Below, one piece after another: positions 51,246-60,106 of a stretch of DNA of 64,000 nucleotides (its first letter is position 1; the number at the start of each line of letters is the position of its first letter). The notes beneath the pieces are model-generated. The model did not search any database. It was not told the DNA's origin and was given only the letters and a program-made list of their open reading frames with translations. Location of the stretch: positions 186,001-250,000 of the forward strand of contig NBAY01000061.1 in NCBI GenBank assembly GCA_002794775.1. Reading direction: 5' to 3'. Position numbers and translations under genes: made by a program. The stretch comes from Porodaedalea pini. Its lineage: Eukaryota; Basidiomycota; Agaricomycetes; Hymenochaetales; Hymenochaetaceae.

Positions 51246-52458
51246 ATGGACAAGGCATCCTGGCCTGCCTATCTCAATGACTATGCTGACGTCTTCTCGG
51301 AGAAAGGATTCGAAAAGCTACCAGAACATCAACCCTGGGACCATGTCATCAATCTGAAGCCTGACTTTAAGCCTAGTGACTGCAAGATCTATCCATTGAT
51401 GCTGATGGAACAACAGTCACTCAAGGACTTCCTTGAGGAGAATCTGAAGTCAGGCCGCATCCAAAAGTCGATCTCACTGATGGCGTTGCCCTTCTTCTTC
51501 ATCAAGAAGGCTGACAAGTCTTTATGGCTGATCCAGGATTACTGGAAGCTCAATGAGGGTACGATCAAGAATAAGTATCCTCTCCCCCTCATTGATGAAC
51601 TTGCTGACAAGGTCAAGAAAGCAAAGTTTATCACCAAGCTTGACCTTCAGTGGGGATATTACAACATCCGGATCCGCAAAGGTGATGAGTGGAAGGCAGT
51701 GTTCCACACAAACATGGATCTTTTCAAACCAACGGTGATGTTTTTCAGTCTTTGCAATGTGCCGGCGACATTCCAGGCATTTATGTGAACCTGATCATCA
51801 TTTACCTCAACGACATCCTGATCCTCTCAGAAACCATCGAGGAGCACATCGAGACCTCAAGGTGTGTACTTCAAATACTTCAAGAGAACAGCCTGTATCT
51901 AAAGCTGGAGAAGTGTGAATTCAATGTCAAGGTCATAAAGTACCTTGGCCACATCATCAGTAATGGCAAGCTCAAGGCTGACCTGGCAAAGACAGAGGTG
52001 ATCACTAGCTGGCCCACCTCTCAAAACCTCAAGGAACTCCAAAAGTTCCTCGGCATGGGCAACTGGCTCCGATGGTTCATCAAGGACTACAGCAAGGTGG
52101 TCCAACTGTTGACGTCACTAATGGGAAAGAAGGGCTGGGTATGGGAGACCAAACAGCAGGAAGCGTTCAAGGAGCTGAAACATTGTCTCAGCTCACCTCC
52201 AGTCCTAGCAATTGCTAATGATGAAGGCCCCTTCCACATAGAGGCAGACTCATCAAACTTTGCACTCAGTGGTGTGTTGTTGCAGAAGCAGGAAGGCAAG
52301 TGGAGGGTGATTGCCTATCAGTTGGAAGCGCTACTGCCCGTTGAATGAAACTATGAGATCTACGACAAAGAGATGCTCACAATCATTTCAGCACTCAAGG
52401 AGTGGAGACAGTACCTTCTCAGTGCCTGTCACAAGATTGAAATCTGGTCCGACCATGC
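51246..52458 (+). pseudogene. Reverse transcriptase/RNase H part of E0 pol
   Basis: The 51,246-51,788 frame gives YPLPLIDELADKVKKAKF and the RT core. A short internal deletion near 51,780 removes the codons between QAF and the NLIIIYLNDILIL motif, where the usual catalytic YLDD is YLND. The frame resumes at 51,689-52,348 with GHIISNGKLKAD and RNase H. It is cut after GACCATGC at 52,458 by the 6.8-kb insert. Confidence 0.87.
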
Positions 52459-52609
52459 TGAAAGGAAATTTTTGCACATTTGGAAACACCGATCGAGGCA
52501 GATCATCATTGATCATACACATGATTATGCAGTCACTTGATCTTGATGGATACTTGCCTAGGCAAAAATCCGTCAGTCACAGTCACGCTACACTGTCACA
52601 CCTTGTGAC

Positions 52610-53176
52610 ATGGCACACAAACATCAAGAAAGCAAAGGACAACCAATGGAGGTTGATCCCCAATGCACGAAGTGCACACTACTACAGAACATAGCACAGA
52701 AGGTCCCAGAACTCCTAAAAACAATAGGACTAATGGACCAGGACGTCACATTACGTGCACACAAGTGGGAAGGCCAATCCCCATACTTTGAAACAGGACA
52801 GGCAATCTACTACTGAGATTCCAAGACATATAAGGTCCACATCAGTAAAGAAGAACATGGCATGGAGAACTACAAATGGGATACAGTGATCCAATATAAT
52901 AAAGAGCCACACGAAGAATGCAGGAACTGCAAGATGATAATACGAATACCTACTCTGAGTCCAGTACAAGGGAACGACATACCAATACATATAACAATGG
53001 CACTCAAGCACTGCTGGGCATACTTCAGGGACATAAAGCATCAAGGCACAATTACACTATATGAATTCAAGCACATGTCAGGAAGGCAAACATTCAAGAT
53101 TACTCTACCCTTAGGAGTACATGACTCACATCAGGAAAATGGCAAACACTATACACTGTTATATGCTACTATATAG
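52610..53176 (+). pseudogene. Orphan ORF at the left of the 6.8-kb insert
   Basis: 188 codons plus stop, from MAHKHQESKGQPMEVDPQ to HYTLLYATI, interrupted by one in-frame TGA at 52,814-52,816. Contains two CxxC pairs (CTKC near the start, CRNC in the middle), spaced like possible metal ligands. I recognise no family. It may be the element's own gene or another captured fragment. Confidence 0.45.
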
Positions 53177-53445
53177 CATTTATAGTAGTCCATAATTGTT
53201 TAGTAGTTAATGGTAACCCTCCCTCTATATAGGACCATATAGTACCATAGTGCCAAATAGTCCATAGCTGTATAGTACCATAGTGCTGAATAGGCCATAG
53301 TTGTATATTACATAGCACAGAATAGGCCATAGAGGGATAGTATTATAGTACTGAATAGCACATAGATTCAAATAGGCTATAATTTCTTAGAGACATATAG
53401 CTGCCTATATTGACATAAAGGAGTCTATAGCCAGGTGACTAGGCA
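53165..53445. repeat. ATAG-rich degenerate array, left side
   Basis: About 280 bases in which ATAG or CCATAG recurs every 8-15 bases on the plus strand (CATAGTGC, AATAGGCCATAG). It is much richer in A+T than the DNA around it. The right array at 57,780-58,190 has the reverse-complement motif. Confidence 0.7.
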
Positions 53446-53626
53446 GTGTCATACTTCCTAGAGTATCTCATGACCTCACACTTTTGTTCAGATAGTGGGC
53501 AGATTGCAAAAATCATATATTATAATATGCAAAATACATTGGATCTACTATCCTACTGGTGTAGCCATACACTTCCTTATCAGACTTGCTCCATGATGAT
53601 GCATGTTAGATACCCACATGTGTCTG

Positions 53627-54715
53627 CTATGTTCCTTGATGTTTGACTTCACCTACTTCCTCTTCACACCACAGAAGGACTGCAACACATTTGCTGTGAA
53701 GTGTCAGCATGACATCGTCCCATTTGGTCATGACGCACAGGTGAGACATGTACAGTGCTTTTGCGCACTCGAACATCTCCAGTTGGATAGTCTCGAGAAG
53801 TGCAGGTATGGCAATCTCCAGTTCTATGAGTGCTAGTAGCACTTGAACGCCTCAATCACATCACACAGAAAGTGTTTGCTTCTTCTGGATATCGACTGGA
53901 CCGAGTTTGAGGCAAAGTAGCACATTCTGGACAAAAAGCCATTTGTAAGATTACAGGCAAACTGGGAAGCAAGAAATAATATGTTTACACCTTCTGTTCC
54001 CAGTCATTGAACTTGTAGCCAGGAGTGTAGCTGTTGAGTACATCCGCCTTCGCATGGATACCGGCTCTCCTGAGTGTCTTTGCGAGCTCCTCACAGCGGT
54101 TGTATAATGCCTGCTTATTAGTGTGCACAGTGATACCGCAGGGGTCAATGATTGCTTGGACGCTTGCGACATGTGATGAGAGAACAAGACCCTGGTTGTT
54201 GCCATGAATCATGACCATGAATCCAATCGTGCATGTGCTTAGGCCCCACGAGTTCTGCCACACAAAATTTGCCACTGTTCGGACCTGTACATTGCGGATC
54301 GTCCAGGTCTTTGACCATAATTTTAAACATCTCTGGCCGCAAAAAGTTTTGGCCAAGGCAATGCGACGGATGTCATGACCAGTTGTCAGAATGAAGCCTT
54401 CCATGGTCGTCATGTATAGACCACCGGTGAACTTCTCCTTCTCAGACTTGATGCTGGGGATGGTGGGTATGGCGAGCAGCTCCTCATACACACACCAATT
54501 TAAGCCAAGAATTTCCCGTACTTCAGTGTCAGCCTCTTTCTTCATGAGATGCGCAGTGTGGCCTTCCTGCCATAGGAATTAGCACGTACAGAGGAATGGC
54601 TGGGGGCTCTTGAACTCCCAGTGCACAACACTGTTCACTGGTTGAGCTTGAGGGGGTAGATCACGATAGCTCTTGATCTATTTGGCATAGTAGAGATACA
54701 TGGCCATTTTTAAGT
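53627..54715 (-). pseudogene. Prolyl-tRNA synthetase fragment, catalytic core to C-terminal domain
   Basis: Read 54,715 to 53,627 it gives MYLYYAK, IKSYRDLPLKLNQ, HWEFKSPQPFL, FLWQEGHTAHLMKKEADTEV, SEKEKFTGGLYMTTMEGF, FVWQNSWGLSTCTIGFMVM, YTPGYKFNDWEQK and, further on, IPALLETIQLEMFECAKA, then TKWDDVMLTLHSKC. These are class-II motif 2, the Pro-binding region, the anticodon domain and the ProRS C-terminal domain, in the correct order. Trp-to-stop changes, two frame shifts near 54,300-54,350 and an intron-like GTG after WEQK show it is a decayed genomic copy. The 5' part lies separately at 56,145-56,850. Confidence 0.85.
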
Positions 54716-55080
54716 GGACATGCAATATGTACATGGACTCCTTGTGTTTCGTCCAGGCAAGCTCCTGCCTTGCATTTAGGCTCAAGCTGACATATGGGTC
54801 AGGTGTGCCTCCACCAATCTTAGTACCTTTCAGGCCATGTGTGGAGTGAATCGTGACCTGCAGCATGCTGATAGCAGTGTCAATTGGTGTGCCTGAGAGG
54901 AGCTGCTCAAGATTGAGGGTGAAGACTGGCACAAGGAGGGTCAGTGTGTGGTGGTGACAGTGAGGAGTCCAAGATGAGCTCACCATTCAGGTCATACATC
55001 ATTGGTCTGAGGATAGAGTGAACCATGTCTTGGATGAAGGCAGACAGACCAGGAATCTAAACTACCGTGTCAATGGAATT
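54715..55080 (-). pseudogene. Tricalbin-like fragment (SMP end plus C2 domain)
   Basis: The minus strand reads IPGLSAFIQDMVHSIL, MMYDLN, then across a retained intron (GTGAGC...GCCAG, about 60 bases) VFTLNLEQLLSGTPIDTAIS. It continues into the C2 start LQVTIHSTHGLKGTKIGG, GTPDPYVSLSLNARQELAWT and KHKES. Tricalbins tether ER to plasma membrane; this order (end of the lipid-binding SMP domain, then C2) is diagnostic. The open frame runs straight on into prolyl-tRNA synthetase sequence, so the junction lies at about 54,715-54,735. Retention of the intron means capture from DNA, not from spliced mRNA. Confidence 0.83.
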
Positions 55081-55129
55081 GTCAAATTCAATCAATAGAT
55101 CATACCCACAAAGCCAACATCCGGTGGTG

Positions 55130-56145
55130 TGTCCGTGCCTCAACCATTCCAAACCCGTGCCACTTTCTATACTACAACCATATGTCATCCTCTGCCAGTA
55201 CTTGATGATCAGTGCCAGTCGTATCATTCTTCCCCTCTATCTGCACTATCTTGTGGTCGATCACCCTCACAACACCTTCCACATCCTTCAGGATCTTGTG
55301 CTCAAGCTTTTTCCGCAAGTCATCCACCCATGCATCCTTGATCACCGCATCTTGCCCATCAAGCACTGTCTTGAAGCATCCTGTCCCTCGTCCACGCACC
55401 GACTTCTCAATGTAAAGCGGCTCTTCACATTTGTGACACCCACCATTCAGCCAAATATGATAGCCACCCTCCTCCAACTTCTCAATTGTTGGATCATATC
55501 CCAAACAAATCTCATCGACAAAGAGTATTCCACAGATGATGCAAACGAGTTTTTCAGGTTCTTGATTGATGTTGAAGTCCTCTGTACAAAGCAGACCGCT
55601 TCAGTCAAAGATGAAGAAAAACATTGTCGAGAACTAGAGAACGGCACCTAGGACAAATCGTCGGTTGTGCTGCACGGTGAAGACTATGCGAGCACAGTTG
55701 AGAAGTTCCCGATATGCATCCCTCAATGCTTGAGTGGAAGCAGCAAATTTTAATTCGAGCAGTGCACAGACATCACGCCAAGCAGCATCTTCTGATTCAG
55801 CCTTGTCCTTGTCGAGCCCGATGCAATCAGGTTTCCAGATGCAGTTGACGGGAGCATCCGCAGGGGCGCGATCCCTGAAGCGAGCAGAGAATATGCGTGA
55901 TTTAGGTGTAGTCCCGTTGATGCCATACCCCAAGCGAACACTGTCTGCTATTTCGTTGAGAAAATCGGCAACCTGCTCCTCATCCGACTTCTGTCAAACA
56001 GGCTTCCCATCCACATCCATCTTTGACTCCGAAGCCTCCAATTCACTTTCAAATTCCTTCTTACTTGTCTGCCATTTCTCCCAGCATTTTTTTCTGTAGT
56101 CGGACGGATTGCTGAGTTCCTCAAGCTTGGAGCTCCCTCTGAAGA
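55130..56145 (-). pseudogene. FunK1-type fungal protein kinase fragment
   Basis: The minus strand from about 56,145 reads SSKLEELSNPSDYRKKCWEK, EEQVADFLNEIADSV, then IWKPDCIGLDKDKAESEDAA, WRDVCALLELKF, CARIVFTVQHNRRFVLGAVL. After a break it continues GLLCTEDFNINQEPEKLV, ICLGYDPTIEKLEEGGYHIW, then RGRGTGCFKTVLDGQDAVIK and DAWVDDLRKKLEHKILKD. This is the ordered N-terminal half of FunK1 kinases, a family greatly expanded in Agaricomycetes. The C-terminal catalytic half is missing. It is cut directly onto prolyl-tRNA synthetase sequence upstream and near tricalbin sequence downstream, all on one strand. Confidence 0.83.
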
Positions 56146-56880
56146 TGCATGTCATATTGACCTTGATCAGTGCCTATAATACTTGTCAGCACAAAGTGAG
56201 GGATTACAGAACAATCAACGCACATTTGTATACCAACCCAGAAAGTAGACCTCTTTCTTCACACCAATAACAATCTTCACTGCGCCGTCGATTCTCCCTT
56301 CCTCCTTTCCTCCTTTGTTGCCTTTTTGTGGGCAGCAATTGCAGATGTGGGTGCAGCAGGCACCGCAGCATCAGTCTTGAGTTCCACAAAATCTACCTCG
56401 TTAAGCTTGGTCTCCCCAGTTTTGAGAGCACGCAAGTATGAAGCGATTTTGATTCCAGAGAAGAAGACAGTAGAATGGGAGGCGAGCATGTGTATGGTGA
56501 AGGGGGAATTCGACACTGCAAGTGATGCATCAAGGACCGTGACAACCTTTGGGAACATGTCATGTCAGGTGCTAATAGTTAAACTGGATGAACTTGATCA
56601 AAGTGTGTGGACAGATAAAGAGACTGTGCTCACGGGGGTCCTTATCCAACATGAAGGATTCTTTTAGCAGGTCCAGCGATGCGAGACACAACTCCTTCAA
56701 ATCCAGCTTTTGCCTAGCATGCCTGAGTTAGTCTCTGTCTCTTTACGTGCGATGATGCCAACAGGAGCTACCACAGCAGATTTTGTGGTCTTTGGCTTGA
56801 AGGCAAGTGTTCTAATAAGTTGAAAGTCAGACAGCACGCTGCTGCAAGCAATGGTGAATTTTACAAGTTGAAGTTGAAGT
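56145..56880 (-). pseudogene. Prolyl-tRNA synthetase fragment, N-terminal YbaK-like part
   Basis: The minus strand reads LAFKPKTTKSAVVAPVGIIA, RKETETNSGMLGK, then MFPKVVTVLDASLAVSNS, SHSTVFFSGIKIASYLRAL, ETKLNEVDFVELK, an Ala/Lys-rich linker, and VKIVIGVKKEVYFLGWYTNV. After a probable retained intron ending near 56,174 comes ALIKVNM, where ProRS normally continues into its catalytic core. This matches the N-terminal editing-like domain and linker of fungal cytosolic ProRS. It breaks into FunK1 sequence near 56,145, and the ProRS match resumes at 54,715. Frameshifts are present. Confidence 0.75.
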
Positions 56881-57019
56881 TGAAGTTGCGTCAAAATCAA
56901 CATGCATGTGACTGAATTCCCACGCTCTTGCTCGTGGATGGGTACCATCGAGCAAAAGCGTGGGAAATTAGACTTGGTGAATTTTGACGCATCTCACTGA
57001 CTCTCAGATCCTTACTCAC

Positions 57020-57600
57020 CACCTTCTACTTTTACCTGCTCAACAACCCCTTCACCCCAAAGTACTTTTTCAAAAAACTAGTGTGCTGAAGTTGGATGCT
57101 GTAGCAATGCACAGACCATTCCTGGAGAACACAGTGCTTACTTTGACTTGAAGGCACTCTTTTATTAGCATGCAGAGGTTTGGGAGGAGAACAGCAAGAT
57201 CTTCATCAAGGACATCAAAAGCTCAAACAGCACTTTTATAAATGGTGTCTGACTCTCTACAGAAGGTGTAGAATTACACCCCTATGACATTGTGGTGCAT
57301 TTGTTGCATCTTTGCTGTGTACATGGTAAAGTTTATAATGAGAGGTTACCAGTTCCACCAATGCCAGAGTCCTCTGTACATATTGACAAAGCAGCACACT
57401 CAGTGAAGAAAGGTTTTTAGCAGGTATGTTCTGTCTGTTCTGTCTGTTCTTCTAAGTGTAAGCTCTGACTTATATTGATGTGTACTTGCAGCAGTCAGGC
57501 AACAATCCACAAGTTGCATTAGGTATCTTTGTGCTCAGTCTTGTGACTGCTACCATCTTATGGTGGGTAAAAGAGTAGAGACAATTTAAATCTATATAAA
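57020..57600 (+). pseudogene. FHA-domain/tail-anchored protein fragment (SLMAP/Far10-like), internally deleted
   Basis: The plus strand reads YFYLLNNPFTPKYF, AYFDLKALFY, HAEVWEENSKIFIKDIKSSN, STFINGV, LSTEGVELHPYDIV, the core of an FHA phosphothreonine-binding domain. It then jumps to a C-terminal region, RLPVPPMPESSVHIDKAAHS, an intron-like GTATGT...GCAG, and a final membrane helix NPQVALGIFVLSLVTATILW with WV and a short tail. FHA at the front and a tail anchor at the back is the architecture of SLMAP and fungal Far9/Far10-type STRIPAK proteins. The long coiled-coil middle is missing. Stops interrupt the frame. The exact family is an inference. Confidence 0.68.
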
Positions 57601-57779
57601 TAAACATTTGAATGAGAGTGATACAATGCAGACTTGGGAACAGCCAAAAACAGTCTCCCAACCATAGTTATTATTCTATGCAGATATTTTTCTGATTGAT
57701 GAATATAGATTCTAAATGCTAGTCATTACTCAGTTTTGACCTCAGGTTGATTTTCATCTATGGTACTATTTAGATTCTC

Positions 57780-58190
57780 TACTCAGCATCATTGTAGATA
57801 TATATTACAGCTATATCTGACTATTGATACTATATAACTATATGCTATATAGCTTTATGTAACTATGAGAGGCTATAAGCTATATAAAACTATATGTACT
57901 ATACAATACTCTATCACTATATACTATGCAACTTTACATGACTATGAGAGACTATGAGCTATGAGCTATATAGCTTTATGTGACTATCAGAGGCTATTAG
58001 CTATATGAAACTATATGTACTATATAGTACTCTATCACTATGCACTAGGCAACTTTACATGACTATGAGAGGCTATGAGCTATATAAAACTATATGTACT
58101 ATACAATACTCTATCACTATGTACTATGCAGCTTTACATAACTATGGTATACTATATCCTACTATATGACTATATACTACTATAGCCAAC
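57780..58190. repeat. CTAT-rich tandem array, right side
   Basis: Imperfect tandem repeat with a shared block AAACTATATGTACTATA recurring at spacings of about 121 and 79 bases (block ends near 57,900, 58,021 and 58,100). The longer unit carries about 42 extra bases. CTAT on the plus strand is the reverse complement of the ATAG motif of the left array. Confidence 0.82.
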
Positions 58191-58199
58191 TATGGGTTT

Positions 58200-59282
58200 T
58201 TGCTGTTTTCCTGATGCACTGTTCATAATGGAGACATGTCTCGGCAGAGCAGCCCTATCACCGAGTGGACCTGATACTGAATGGTGATCCAAGAATAACC
58301 CATGGGTCCACATGGTTATCCCCAATGGATTTGAATGGGAGGAATGACCACCCAAGCACAGCAATGCCACCTGATAGGCTATGCAGTGCCACAACCAAGG
58401 AAGACACTTTGAGAAGCAGGGAAGTAAAGCCCCGATATAGAAGCACATGGGAGAAGCAGGAAGTTAATTAAACTGGAGCATGTGGAGAACGTGGGAGCCC
58501 GACTACCTAAGTAGTGATGTACTCACCTGAGTGCATGGGTCATGACATCACGTGACTCACACCTGCAGTCCAAATTGCAGAATGCAAGCAAACCATTGGA
58601 CGGAGTACATGTGCATACATCCCCACCACAGCAGCCAAGTGCTGTAGCCACCTGAAACATAGGAAGGAGACAGAAGGGCATCTGGTTGGACAGAACGTAA
58701 AGAAATTAGAAATTCAGTAGGCTATATAAGGCCGAGTAACTAGCACCCAGATCCCCATTCTCTATTGCTTTTACAGTATGGTTTTAGCTACCTGCATAGC
58801 TATCTTCTTACTCCTACCTCTACATCTATAACTACCACTGTGTAATATCCTCCTTGGTTGAATAACGAGTCCACCTCATACTGGGTTGAGGATTTGTCCC
58901 AAGTTGAATAAGGATTGACTTTGATTGAGTAGACCCTCAGCTATGCCATGCTTAGAAGGTTCCTCTCATTGTCCACAGAACCCAGTCTGGTTGAGTGCAT
59001 CTCAGCTACACCAAGCCTTGCAGTTTGCCTCCTAGACAACATTGCAGCATAACTGAATGTCTCTCGACTCTCTAGGGCATTACCTCCCCTATCTGCTGTA
59101 ACTAAGTGCTTTCAATACCAACCTCAGGTTCTACCTAATAAGGGCAGCAAAGGAGAAGCTGGCTACGGAATTAGTCAAAGATAAGTAAAGTCATCTCAGT
59201 AATACACCACTCAGAGGACCATACAGTCCAGAAGGCAACACCTTCATGGTCAAAGAATTGGAATATTCACCTGACCCTAACA
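58200..59282 (+). repeat. LTR-like right end of the 6.8-kb insert
   Basis: Non-coding. It contains TATATAAGGCCG near 58,722 followed by a pyrimidine-rich start region (CCCCATTCTCTATTGC) and ends ACCCTAACA at the insert border. This promoter-plus-terminus layout resembles an LTR, but its left edge is not clear and no second copy is present in the window. Confidence 0.4.
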
Positions 59283-60106
59283 CATGCCAACCTCACGTAC
59301 TTCAGGTTGGCACAGAAGCTAAGCTATCATCAAGCTTGCTGGCAGACAGAACTTGAAGAATTTGACTTCCACCTCAAGCACAAGTCGGGTAAGACAATGG
59401 GCAAGGCGGACCTGCTGTCACGCAAGGCGGGATACAACGAAGGCAAGGATGATAATGACGGTGTCATGTTCATCAAGGAGAAGTGGCTGAACTGTGAGGT
59501 GGTGCAGATGTCATGAGATGAGTTGTTGGAATGAGTGGGTGAAGCACAGAGGGCGCAGGATAAGTCGGAGAGGCCAACAGGTATGACAAAGGTCAACAGG
59601 ATGTGGCAAATGAAGGGAAAGGTTTACATACTGTCAGTGAGGAAGAAGGCCATATTGTGGGAGTGTCATGACTTGGTACTAGTGGGGCATCTGGGAGTGT
59701 CAAAAACAGTGGAGCTTGTCCATCGAGACTTCTGGTGGGCGTCTATGTTCTCCAATGTCTGAGTGTATGTCCGAGGGTGTGATTGCTGTCAGCGAATGAA
59801 GGCTCTGAGGGTGTCGAGATCAAGGCCACTCCATCCGAATGCAGTTCCTGAAGGTCCTTGGGAAATTGTGACAGTCAATCTCATTGGAGAACTCCCAGAC
59901 TCGAAGGGACATAACGCAATCTGCGTCTTTGTGGATAGATTCTTGAAGTAGATGCACGTGATCCCAATGACGACAAAACTCTTGGCTGAAGGCATGGCCC
60001 AATTGTACCATGACCATGTCTTCCACCTCCATGGCTTACCAAAGAAGATCATCCATGACCAAGGCACACAGTTCAATGCATTGATGATGAAAGAACTGTA
60101 CAAACT
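59283..60106 (+). pseudogene. E0 pol continued: RNase H end and integrase core
   Basis: Continues E0 after the 6.8-kb insert. It gives QTELEEFDFHLKHKSGKTMG, the zinc-binding CDCCQRMKA and LIGELPDSKGHNAICVFVDR, interrupted by TGA/TAG stops. It is cut at 60,106 by the 1.4-kb insert inside the KELYKL coding stretch. Confidence 0.87.

Follow-up and report, generated by a model that had tools for sequence, protein, structure and literature searches.

The 6.8-kb block at positions 52459-59282 of the window, by which we mean the whole 64,000-nucleotide stretch of the Porodaedalea pini genome analysed here, consists of two nested insertions, which a search of the genome against itself separates into an outer sequence (52459-53128 plus 58219-59282) and an inner one (53129-58216). 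In our reading, to which we assign a probability of roughly 0.88, the region has three layers: a Gypsy retroelement, a 1,734-bp unit with TG..CA ends within it and, within that unit, a 5,088-bp non-autonomous Pack-type PlavakaB element. The 1,734-bp unit would have entered the retroelement first, with a 5-bp CATGC duplication, and the 5,088-bp cut-and-paste element would later have entered the unit, with a 2-bp CA duplication. An initial annotation had described the block as a single element with TG..CA ends. Its boundaries are accurate, since CATGC at 52454-52458 and 59283-59287, the TG at 52459 and the CA ending at 59282 can be read from the sequence; the single element itself does not survive the own-genome search, which divides the block into a 1,734-bp repeat and an inner element. 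Stacked insertions, which that annotation had set against its own hypothesis, are what we find, because the TG..CA ends and 5-bp duplication are those of another repeat, 1.7 kb long, which the gene-bearing element entered later. The layers and their borders are as follows.

51246-52458, forward strand: host retroelement, pol of Gypsy type on the left side of the insertion (profile matches; the local frame resumes at 59288)
52454-52458, unstranded: outer repeat, left CATGC target duplication (sequence)
52459-53128, forward strand: outer TG..CA repeat, solo-LTR-like, left 670 bp (own-genome copies)
53127-53128, unstranded: inner element, left CA target duplication (flanks and empty sites)
53129-58216, unstranded: inner element, 5,088 bp, non-autonomous, PlavakaB-type, with captured gene pieces (own-genome copies, ends, duplication)
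53129-53149, forward strand: left terminal inverted repeat, CATCAGGAAAATGGCAAACAC (inverted-repeat scan; 86% complementary to the right)
53186-53375, unstranded: left subterminal AT-rich tandem motifs (repeat scan)
57828-58155, unstranded: right subterminal AT-rich repeats (repeat scan)
58196-58216, reverse strand: right terminal inverted repeat, GTTTTTGCTGTTTTCCTGATG (inverted-repeat scan)
58217-58218, unstranded: inner element, right CA target duplication (flanks and empty sites)
58219-59282, forward strand: outer TG..CA repeat, right 1,064 bp (own-genome copies)
59283-59287, unstranded: outer repeat, right CATGC target duplication (sequence)

The inner element is bounded by 21-bp imperfect inverted repeats (CATCAGGAAAA...TTTTCCTGATG). 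With at most one mismatch, this terminal pattern occurs at 54 places in the genome, against none for a reversed control, and neighbouring ends are arranged as 14 convergent pairs, 11 of them less than 20 kb apart, versus one divergent pair. A match to prolyl-tRNA synthetase lies inside all 11 of the shorter convergent pairs and 13 of the 14 overall. Every copy with both ends read (7/7) is flanked by a perfect 2-bp duplication (CA, AT, TA, CA, AT, AA and CT). Own-genome searches score the best candidates only, so all copy counts are lower bounds. Related copies with target duplications of their own thus bear out the original proposal of a mobile, multi-copy element that captures several genes.

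These ends also point to the type of transposon. PlavakaB transposons are described with CATCA..TGATG termini and 2-3 bp duplications in the passages of Kojima 2025 (PMC12730594) drawn on here; the same termini stand at 53129-53133 and 58212-58216, and the combination of CATCAGG..CCTGATG ends with a 2-bp duplication fits PlavakaB. None of the 39 stop-to-stop ORFs (at least 60 aa) overlapping the block contains a transposase domain, and no profile match to Plavaka, KDZ or Transposase_21 was found on the window's contig (C61) or, by comparison by eye, inside the 11 end pairs shorter than 20 kb. Elsewhere in the genome, Plavaka matches do lie between 11-bp CATCAGGAAAA ends. One such unit, at C17:22252-30402, is flanked by CA on both sides, and a 20.5-kb unit at C6:982462-1003021 by AT on both sides; a relative of the C17 unit at C3:1851919-1859653 encloses a Plavaka match between the same two ends with differing flanks (ac/at). 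On C40 and at C135:53340, long units terminating in the 21-bp pattern lie about 8.4-9.5 kb away from Plavaka matches. What ties the inner element to Plavaka is the outermost 11 bp of its ends and not the full 21 bp. The likely motor of the inner element is a Plavaka transposase that other elements supply and that recognises the shared CATCAGGAAAA ends in trans. The earlier view that the block fits no known kind of element, and might be an undescribed one, gives way to this assignment.

A different transposase using CATCAGG ends, whether EnSpm/CACTA-like or of an unknown superfamily, is the alternative that retains most weight, although we consider it improbable. In its favour, an autonomous copy with all 21 bp is absent among the elements read whole, and matching 2-bp flanks were seen in only two of the five Plavaka-enclosing pairs with ends read (C17 and C6), the others being C7 (aa/ca), C3:1851919 (ac/at) and C3:1262020 (gt/ca). 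In two of these three, C7 and C3:1262020, the bases beyond the right motif are nearly identical (13/14), so this motif is not their true border. Against our own reading, of 25 Plavaka matches on contigs C1-C19, six (four pairs) fall inside a pair shorter than 16 kb, two in the C6 pair and 17 outside; four of the latter score 40-52 bits, like that of C17, and the matches in C17 and C3:1851919 cover part of the Plavaka profile (positions 45-166 and 43-166 of 325). Against the alternative, PlavakaB is described with exactly such ends and 2-3 bp duplications in the part of PMC12730594 cited here, and in the C17 unit and its C3 relative Plavaka matches lie between the same 11-bp ends, which there form real borders. 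Among the families searched (Plavaka, KDZ and Transposase_21), Transposase_21 gave only five matches in all, and both it and KDZ were set aside as motors, no match to either being seen by eye inside the 11 short pairs. Two copies, C129 and C138, merely adjoin KDZ matches.

The outer unit is present in at least 15 full-length copies among the loci examined, 14 of the 15 with a perfect 5-bp duplication and one matching at 4 of 5 positions. When outer copies, which differ by C/T, were aligned across the inner insertion point, the site was empty in 18 of 18, without a gap and with a single CA. Solo LTRs of LTR retrotransposons have TG..CA termini and a duplication of 4-6 bp and lack an internal domain. 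The outer unit resembles them in its TG..CA ends, its 5-bp duplication and its want of an internal region; it differs in carrying a constrained 215-aa ORF, and no full-length element with the unit paired around an internal domain stood out among the best 39 of 1005 own-genome candidates. The 'orphan ORF' of the initial annotation was given no position there; its best candidate, 52562-53176, lies in the outer repeat and so, except for its last bases, outside the gene-bearing element. Around the block, the pol domains of the host retroelement (RVT_1 and RT_RNaseH_2 within 51689-52348, RT_RNaseH within 52349-52540) belong to a local Gypsy reading frame that carries on from one side of the block (SDH) to the other (ANLTYF). 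The claim that the block holds no transposase or reverse transcriptase accordingly stands for transposase and, for RT-type domains, with one exception, an RNase H remnant of this Gypsy pol at the left border. Scans of the region for tRNAs (bacterial code) and Rfam families returned nothing.

That the whole 6.8 kb is one gene-trapping LTR-type unit, with TG..CA ends, 5-bp duplications and genes captured between them, is suggested by the exact CATGC duplication flanking the block; it is, however, very improbable, since the outer 1,734 bp run uninterrupted and free of cargo in all 18 copies spanning the site, and since the cargo unit is found elsewhere without the outer repeat, with ends and duplications of its own. 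The own-genome split and the empty outer copies rule it out. Copies, duplications and empty sites together establish past mobility: the inner element moved, and so did its relatives, each taking its cargo along.

Within the inner element we recognise pieces of four genes.

53633-54709, reverse strand: 3' part of the prolyl-tRNA synthetase gene, including an intron (86% identity with locus L047 on C57)
54712-55121, reverse strand: tricalbin-like (SMP/C2) fragment with an intron (92% identical to C5:503435-503838)
55119-56087, reverse strand: FunK1 kinase fragment (88% identical to the C60/C98 genes)
56091-56842 (56091-56145 and 56153-56842), reverse strand: prolyl-tRNA synthetase, 5' part (between its two stretches, 306 bp of the parent are lacking)
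57016-57604 (57016-57287 and 57314-57604), forward strand: FHA-domain/tail-anchor gene fragment, intron retained (74-76% identical to C6:749877-752289)

Domain and DNA matches uphold all four gene identities first proposed. The synthetase piece combines HGTP_anticodon (6.9e-7) with a DNA match to the synthetase gene, and the FunK1 piece matches PF17667 at 2.4e-26 and 7.4e-9. The C2 domain of the tricalbin-like piece lies below the Pfam cut-off in the window (0.0026) and above it at the source locus (4.1e-6), while the FHA/tail-anchor source locus gives FHA at 1e-12. Parent genes had been expected elsewhere in the genome, and a candidate source locus was located for each of the four: C57 (ProRS-C_1 and tRNA-synt_2b), C5 (C2), C60/C98 (PF17667 at 3.6e-63 in C60) and C6 (FHA). 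A profile search with PF09180 gave 24 matches and missed many synthetase copies visible by DNA search. For a FunK1 gene of this genome, the best matches with a named source come from Fomitiporia (50%) and Phellopilus (47%), behind three others at 60-62%. Judged from reading frames and splice-like ends, three of the four captured genes retain introns, in agreement with the earlier statement that capture was from DNA; in the FunK1 stretch the source itself is without an intron. Being degenerate and joined end to end, the pieces might be taken for a segmental duplication or an assembly mosaic and not for cargo. This we regard as highly unlikely, given that related units elsewhere, unlinked and flanked by 2-bp duplications, show identical joins and that the four source loci sit on four different contigs. 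Capture by a Helitron or Pack-MULE is less probable still: multi-gene capture is typical of both, but Helitrons have no target duplication or inverted ends and terminate in TC..CTRR, and Mutator-like elements produce duplications of 9-11 bp and, as a rule, carry long inverted repeats, whereas the inner element has CATCAGG..CCTGATG in 21-bp inverted ends and a 2-bp duplication.

Sister copies allow the order of capture to be considered. Two of these, L045 and L046, have matching ends and contain the synthetase together with eIF4G (MIF4G at 3.4e-10 and 4.4e-15). The expectation of other copies with identical ends, different cargo and fresh 5-bp duplications is thus borne out for ends and cargo and not for the duplication, which is 2 bp. 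Synthetase and FHA pieces are common to the subfamily of the inner element and the sister subfamily; the tricalbin and FunK1 pieces, directly joined to one another, interrupt the synthetase in the window's subfamily and are absent from L045 and L046. Cargo may therefore have been gained stepwise. Joins between pieces are direct, with about 0-3 shared bases, which suggests either that a broken element was repaired from foreign templates or that neighbouring copies fused and were re-mobilised. A pogo-like transposase in L046 was set aside as the motor, as it sits in a 2.4-kb insert that interrupts the synthetase of L046 alone; the sister copy L045 lacks it.

Relative to their sources, the captured pieces have changed chiefly at CpG: 104/310 CpG C/G sites versus 54/675 other C/G sites in the synthetase, 24/58 versus 1/164 in the tricalbin piece, and 44/154 versus 16/343 in FunK1 (compared with C60). 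The synthetase copy of L045 has no such excess (23/274 versus 57/682). After its insertion the window copy would have decayed through deamination at CpG sites, in the manner expected of silenced, methylated DNA.

The inner element shares termini, 2-bp duplications and an Agaricomycotina host with PlavakaB of the CMCT clade, and differs in lacking a transposase and being filled with several host gene pieces; the passages of Kojima 2025 (PMC12730594) drawn on here report capture of TET/JBP genes by PlavakaB and mention no Pack-type elements. Pack-CACTA and other Pack-TYPE elements are described as 'found in plants' in the part of Gisby & Catoni 2022 (PMC8903248) consulted, which covers the MULE, CACTA, hAT, PIF/Harbinger and Mariner superfamilies, Plavaka not being among them, and proposes acquisition by tandem insertion and re-mobilisation. 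Like these, the inner element is non-autonomous, with inverted ends and a duplication, no transposase, internal DNA drawn from several chromosomal genes with source loci in other places, and several copies with the same ends and different cargo. Fungal cut-and-paste elements amplify host-type genes in ascomycetes also, namely histone H3 in hAT and an ORF in Tc1/Mariner (Manning 2013, PMC3538342; Dhillon 2019, PMC6710886). According to the excerpts available, those cases involve one gene per element and other superfamilies, and the Pseudocercospora H3 copies are intronless and inactivated by C-to-T decay with a CpA bias; here there are several genes, Plavaka-type ends, retained introns and CpG-biased decay. 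In the portions of the literature that we found, multi-gene capture by elements with inverted ends is confined to plants, fungal cases being these single-gene ones or Helitrons.

Our best reading is of a gene-collecting element of a known transposon type, much as Pack-type elements are in plants, and of a Pack-type, non-autonomous PlavakaB lineage with captured genes that is not found in the literature searched. The exact 11-bp ends number 349 genome-wide against 24 in the reversed control (positions are those of the matches listed, 100 of the 349). Plavaka might, at slightly less than even odds, be the mushroom counterpart of the plant Pack-MULE and Pack-CACTA elements, with abundant ends and non-autonomous subfamilies that repeatedly collect, join and spread gene pieces, the essential synthetase gene being a recurring core cargo. 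A lineage with at least 11 paired copies, 54 ends, four traceable sources, exact empty sites and sister elements of differing cargo would allow the order in which genes were captured, and the mechanism, to be tested in a small genome. For annotation there is a warning, in that fragmentary 'genes' for synthetase, kinase and eIF4G found in mushrooms may be cargo of transposons.

The block at 52459-59282 is an LTR-like 1.7-kb repeat together with a Pack-type PlavakaB element nested within it. The gene pieces and TG..CA ends described in the initial annotation are present in the sequence, as is the CATGC duplication (at 52454-52458 and 59283-59287), and none of the 39 ORFs of at least 60 aa that overlap the block contains a transposase domain, in agreement with the absence claimed. 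A single 6.8-kb element spanning the block is rejected: a DNA search of the same genome (an assembly of 53.3 Mb in 201 contigs, with the window at C61:186001-250000) yields two separate sets of matches, outer and middle, of which the middle (53129-58216) recurs elsewhere as a unit of its own. The TG..CA ends, which had been taken for those of the gene-bearing element, belong to the outer unit, since 52459-53128 and 58219-59282 form one contiguous unit of 1,734 bp elsewhere.

Fifteen full-length copies of this outer unit (among loci L014-L030) are 91.6-93.0% identical to that of the window, and the 5-bp duplication around them is perfect in 14 and matches at four of five bases in the other. All 18 outer copies that span the insertion point of the middle align there with a single CA and no gap, whereas CA is present on both sides of the middle in the window; hence, the outer unit was already in place when the middle inserted into it. 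The gene that hosts the block is a Gypsy pol, with RVT_1 and RT_RNaseH_2 matches in 51689-52348 and its own stop at about 52346; the local pol frame carries on across the block. The outer unit includes an ORF of 215 aa, for which a Pfam scan returned no family above its cut-off and a protein search one match (93%). A stop-to-stop frame of at least 236 aa is open in 10 of the 15 copies, variable sites by codon position number 29/18/51 within the ORF and 58/47/53 downstream, and pN/pS is 0.19 among the five open copies of seven natural ones having the exact start motif; the window's ORF has a stop after codon 68. These patterns suggest that the LTR-like unit encodes a protein under constraint.

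The inner element is 5,088 bp long and ends in 21-bp inverted repeats (86% complementary), with AT-rich repeats D1-D6 inside them on both sides. Its end pattern occurs at 54 places (49 exact, five with one mismatch), compared with none for the reversed control. Neighbouring ends form 14 convergent pairs, 11 of them under 20 kb as against one divergent pair, and a synthetase match lies inside all 11 and inside 13 of the 14 overall. The fresh duplications, anticipated as 5 bp by the initial annotation, are 2 bp long and perfect in all seven copies with both ends read (window CA; C19 AT; C69 TA; C138 CA; C25 AT; C24 AA; C21 CT). The ends lie 18.9 kb apart in C138 and 13.2 kb apart in C25, so further insertions must sit between them; in each contig the two ends probably belong together. 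The left flanks of the C129 and C138 copies, both adjoining KDZ transposase matches, are nearly identical (14/15 bases read), and these copies may therefore be one insertion, duplicated. Two partial copies lie inverted head-to-head at C23:469783-478888. In the window, an inverted repeat with 23-nt arms (56912-56971), between the synthetase and FHA pieces, is possibly a small nested MITE.

Captured gene pieces in the inner element, with candidate sources
53633-54709 and 56091-56842, minus strand: prolyl-tRNA synthetase; source gene C57:62471-64850 (L047)
54712-55121: tricalbin-like; source C5:503435-503838, 92% identical, intron kept
55119-56087: FunK1; 88% identical to C60 and C98, each with a long open FunK1 frame
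57016-57604, plus strand: FHA/tail-anchor; C6:749877-752289, 74-76% identical, intron kept

Candidate parent loci, predicted with the original reading, were thus found for every piece, and the retained intron it reported is borne out in the synthetase, tricalbin-like and FHA/tail-anchor pieces. No piece is a whole gene, reading frames are broken, and the joins between pieces are direct, with some 0-3 bases shared as judged by eye. The C57 gene has open exons with ProRS-C_1 and tRNA-synt_2b matches; the cargo is 86.0 and 84.6% identical to it in two main pieces, retains its introns and lacks 306 bp of the gene between 56145 and 56153. The tricalbin-like and FunK1 pieces jointly split the synthetase cargo and are absent from a second synthetase copy in C69. 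The C5 source has a C2 match above the Pfam cut-off, and we take the C2/SMP piece to be tricalbin. The best named relatives of one FunK1 gene of this genome are from Fomitiporia and Phellopilus, which points to a probable member of the Hymenochaetales. The C6 locus has an FHA match (1e-12) and about 1.85 kb extra between the two parts that match the cargo; the cargo piece itself presumably includes a tail anchor.

Relative to the source loci, CpG sites in the window copy have been lost far more often than other C/G positions: 104/310 against 54/675 in the synthetase cargo (C57 source), 24/58 against 1/164 in the tricalbin-like piece, and 44/154 against 16/343 (C60 source) or 45/156 against 16/341 (C98) in FunK1. 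Judged from sequence, this is the pattern expected for methylated, silenced DNA. The L045 synthetase has no such excess (23/274 vs 57/682).

Copies with the same ends and different cargo, also foreseen initially, exist in L045 (C24, 5,750 bp) and L046 (C21), which combine a synthetase without the tricalbin-FunK1 block, an eIF4G piece (MIF4G) and, of the FHA piece, no more than short flanks; they are 88-91% identical to each other over two main aligned blocks. The synthetase of the C21 copy is split by a 2.4-kb pogo-like insert (L046:864-3253; HTH_Tnp_Tc5 and DDE_1 in two frames). In C69, C25, C129 (cut by the contig end) and C138, the order is the window's left part, a second synthetase piece and the window's right part; the window and C19 copies may have arisen by recombination, with loss of one of two synthetase pieces. 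Other arrangements of synthetase, tricalbin-like and FunK1 pieces occur in C14, C19:306755 and C99.

PlavakaB elements are described with CATCA..TGATG termini and duplications of 2 or 3 bp (Kojima 2025, PMC12730594, consulted in part). The 11-mer CATCAGGAAAA occurs 349 times genome-wide, against 24 for its reversed control, and the first 100 of these places (C1 to C19) include 34 convergent neighbouring pairs under 16 kb versus three divergent. Nine of the 34, 3,221-3,286 bp long, are a further short subfamily, three of them overlapping synthetase matches by eye. Four of the 34 enclose Plavaka (PF18759) matches (C3 twice, C7, C17), and a fifth enclosing pair, on C6 (20.5 kb), holds two more; of the 25 Plavaka matches on C1 to C19, 17 fall outside all five pairs, while the four pairs account for six and the C6 pair for two. 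The 2-bp flanks match in two of these five pairs, C17 (CA/CA) and C6 (AT/AT), and differ at C3:1851919 (AC/AT), C3:1262020 (GT/CA) and C7 (AA/CA). C17 and C3:1851919 share two identical ends within different flanks, so that these ends are real borders; their PF18759 matches cover only part of the profile, at 49.3 and 57.2 bits against a cut-off of 26.3. In C7 and C3:1262020, 13/14 bases beyond the right motif agree, which places the true border farther out, and these units (C7:494687-500729, C3:1262020-1275264) look like one family. Each has a stop-free Plavaka frame, of 562 and 402 aa, between CATCAGG motifs. Given PlavakaB-like ends, and Plavaka matches within some CATCAGGAAAA pairs, a Plavaka transposase acting in trans would be the likely motor of the inner element.

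The anatomy, source loci and past mobility of the inner element are well supported, while its capture mechanism and motor we infer. A literature search (titles and abstract openings in one library) found no report of Pack-type Plavaka elements. Fungal transduplication is known, judging from the parts consulted, from hAT elements that carry histone H3 and from a Tc1/Mariner element carrying an ORF (PMC3538342, PMC6710886). In the portion seen of PMC8903248, Pack-TYPE elements are termed 'found in plants', and the inner element works like these and Pack-CACTA elements. The proposed gene-trapping element thus stands as multi-gene, mobile and copied, but not as an undescribed kind, since a Pack-type PlavakaB element fits.
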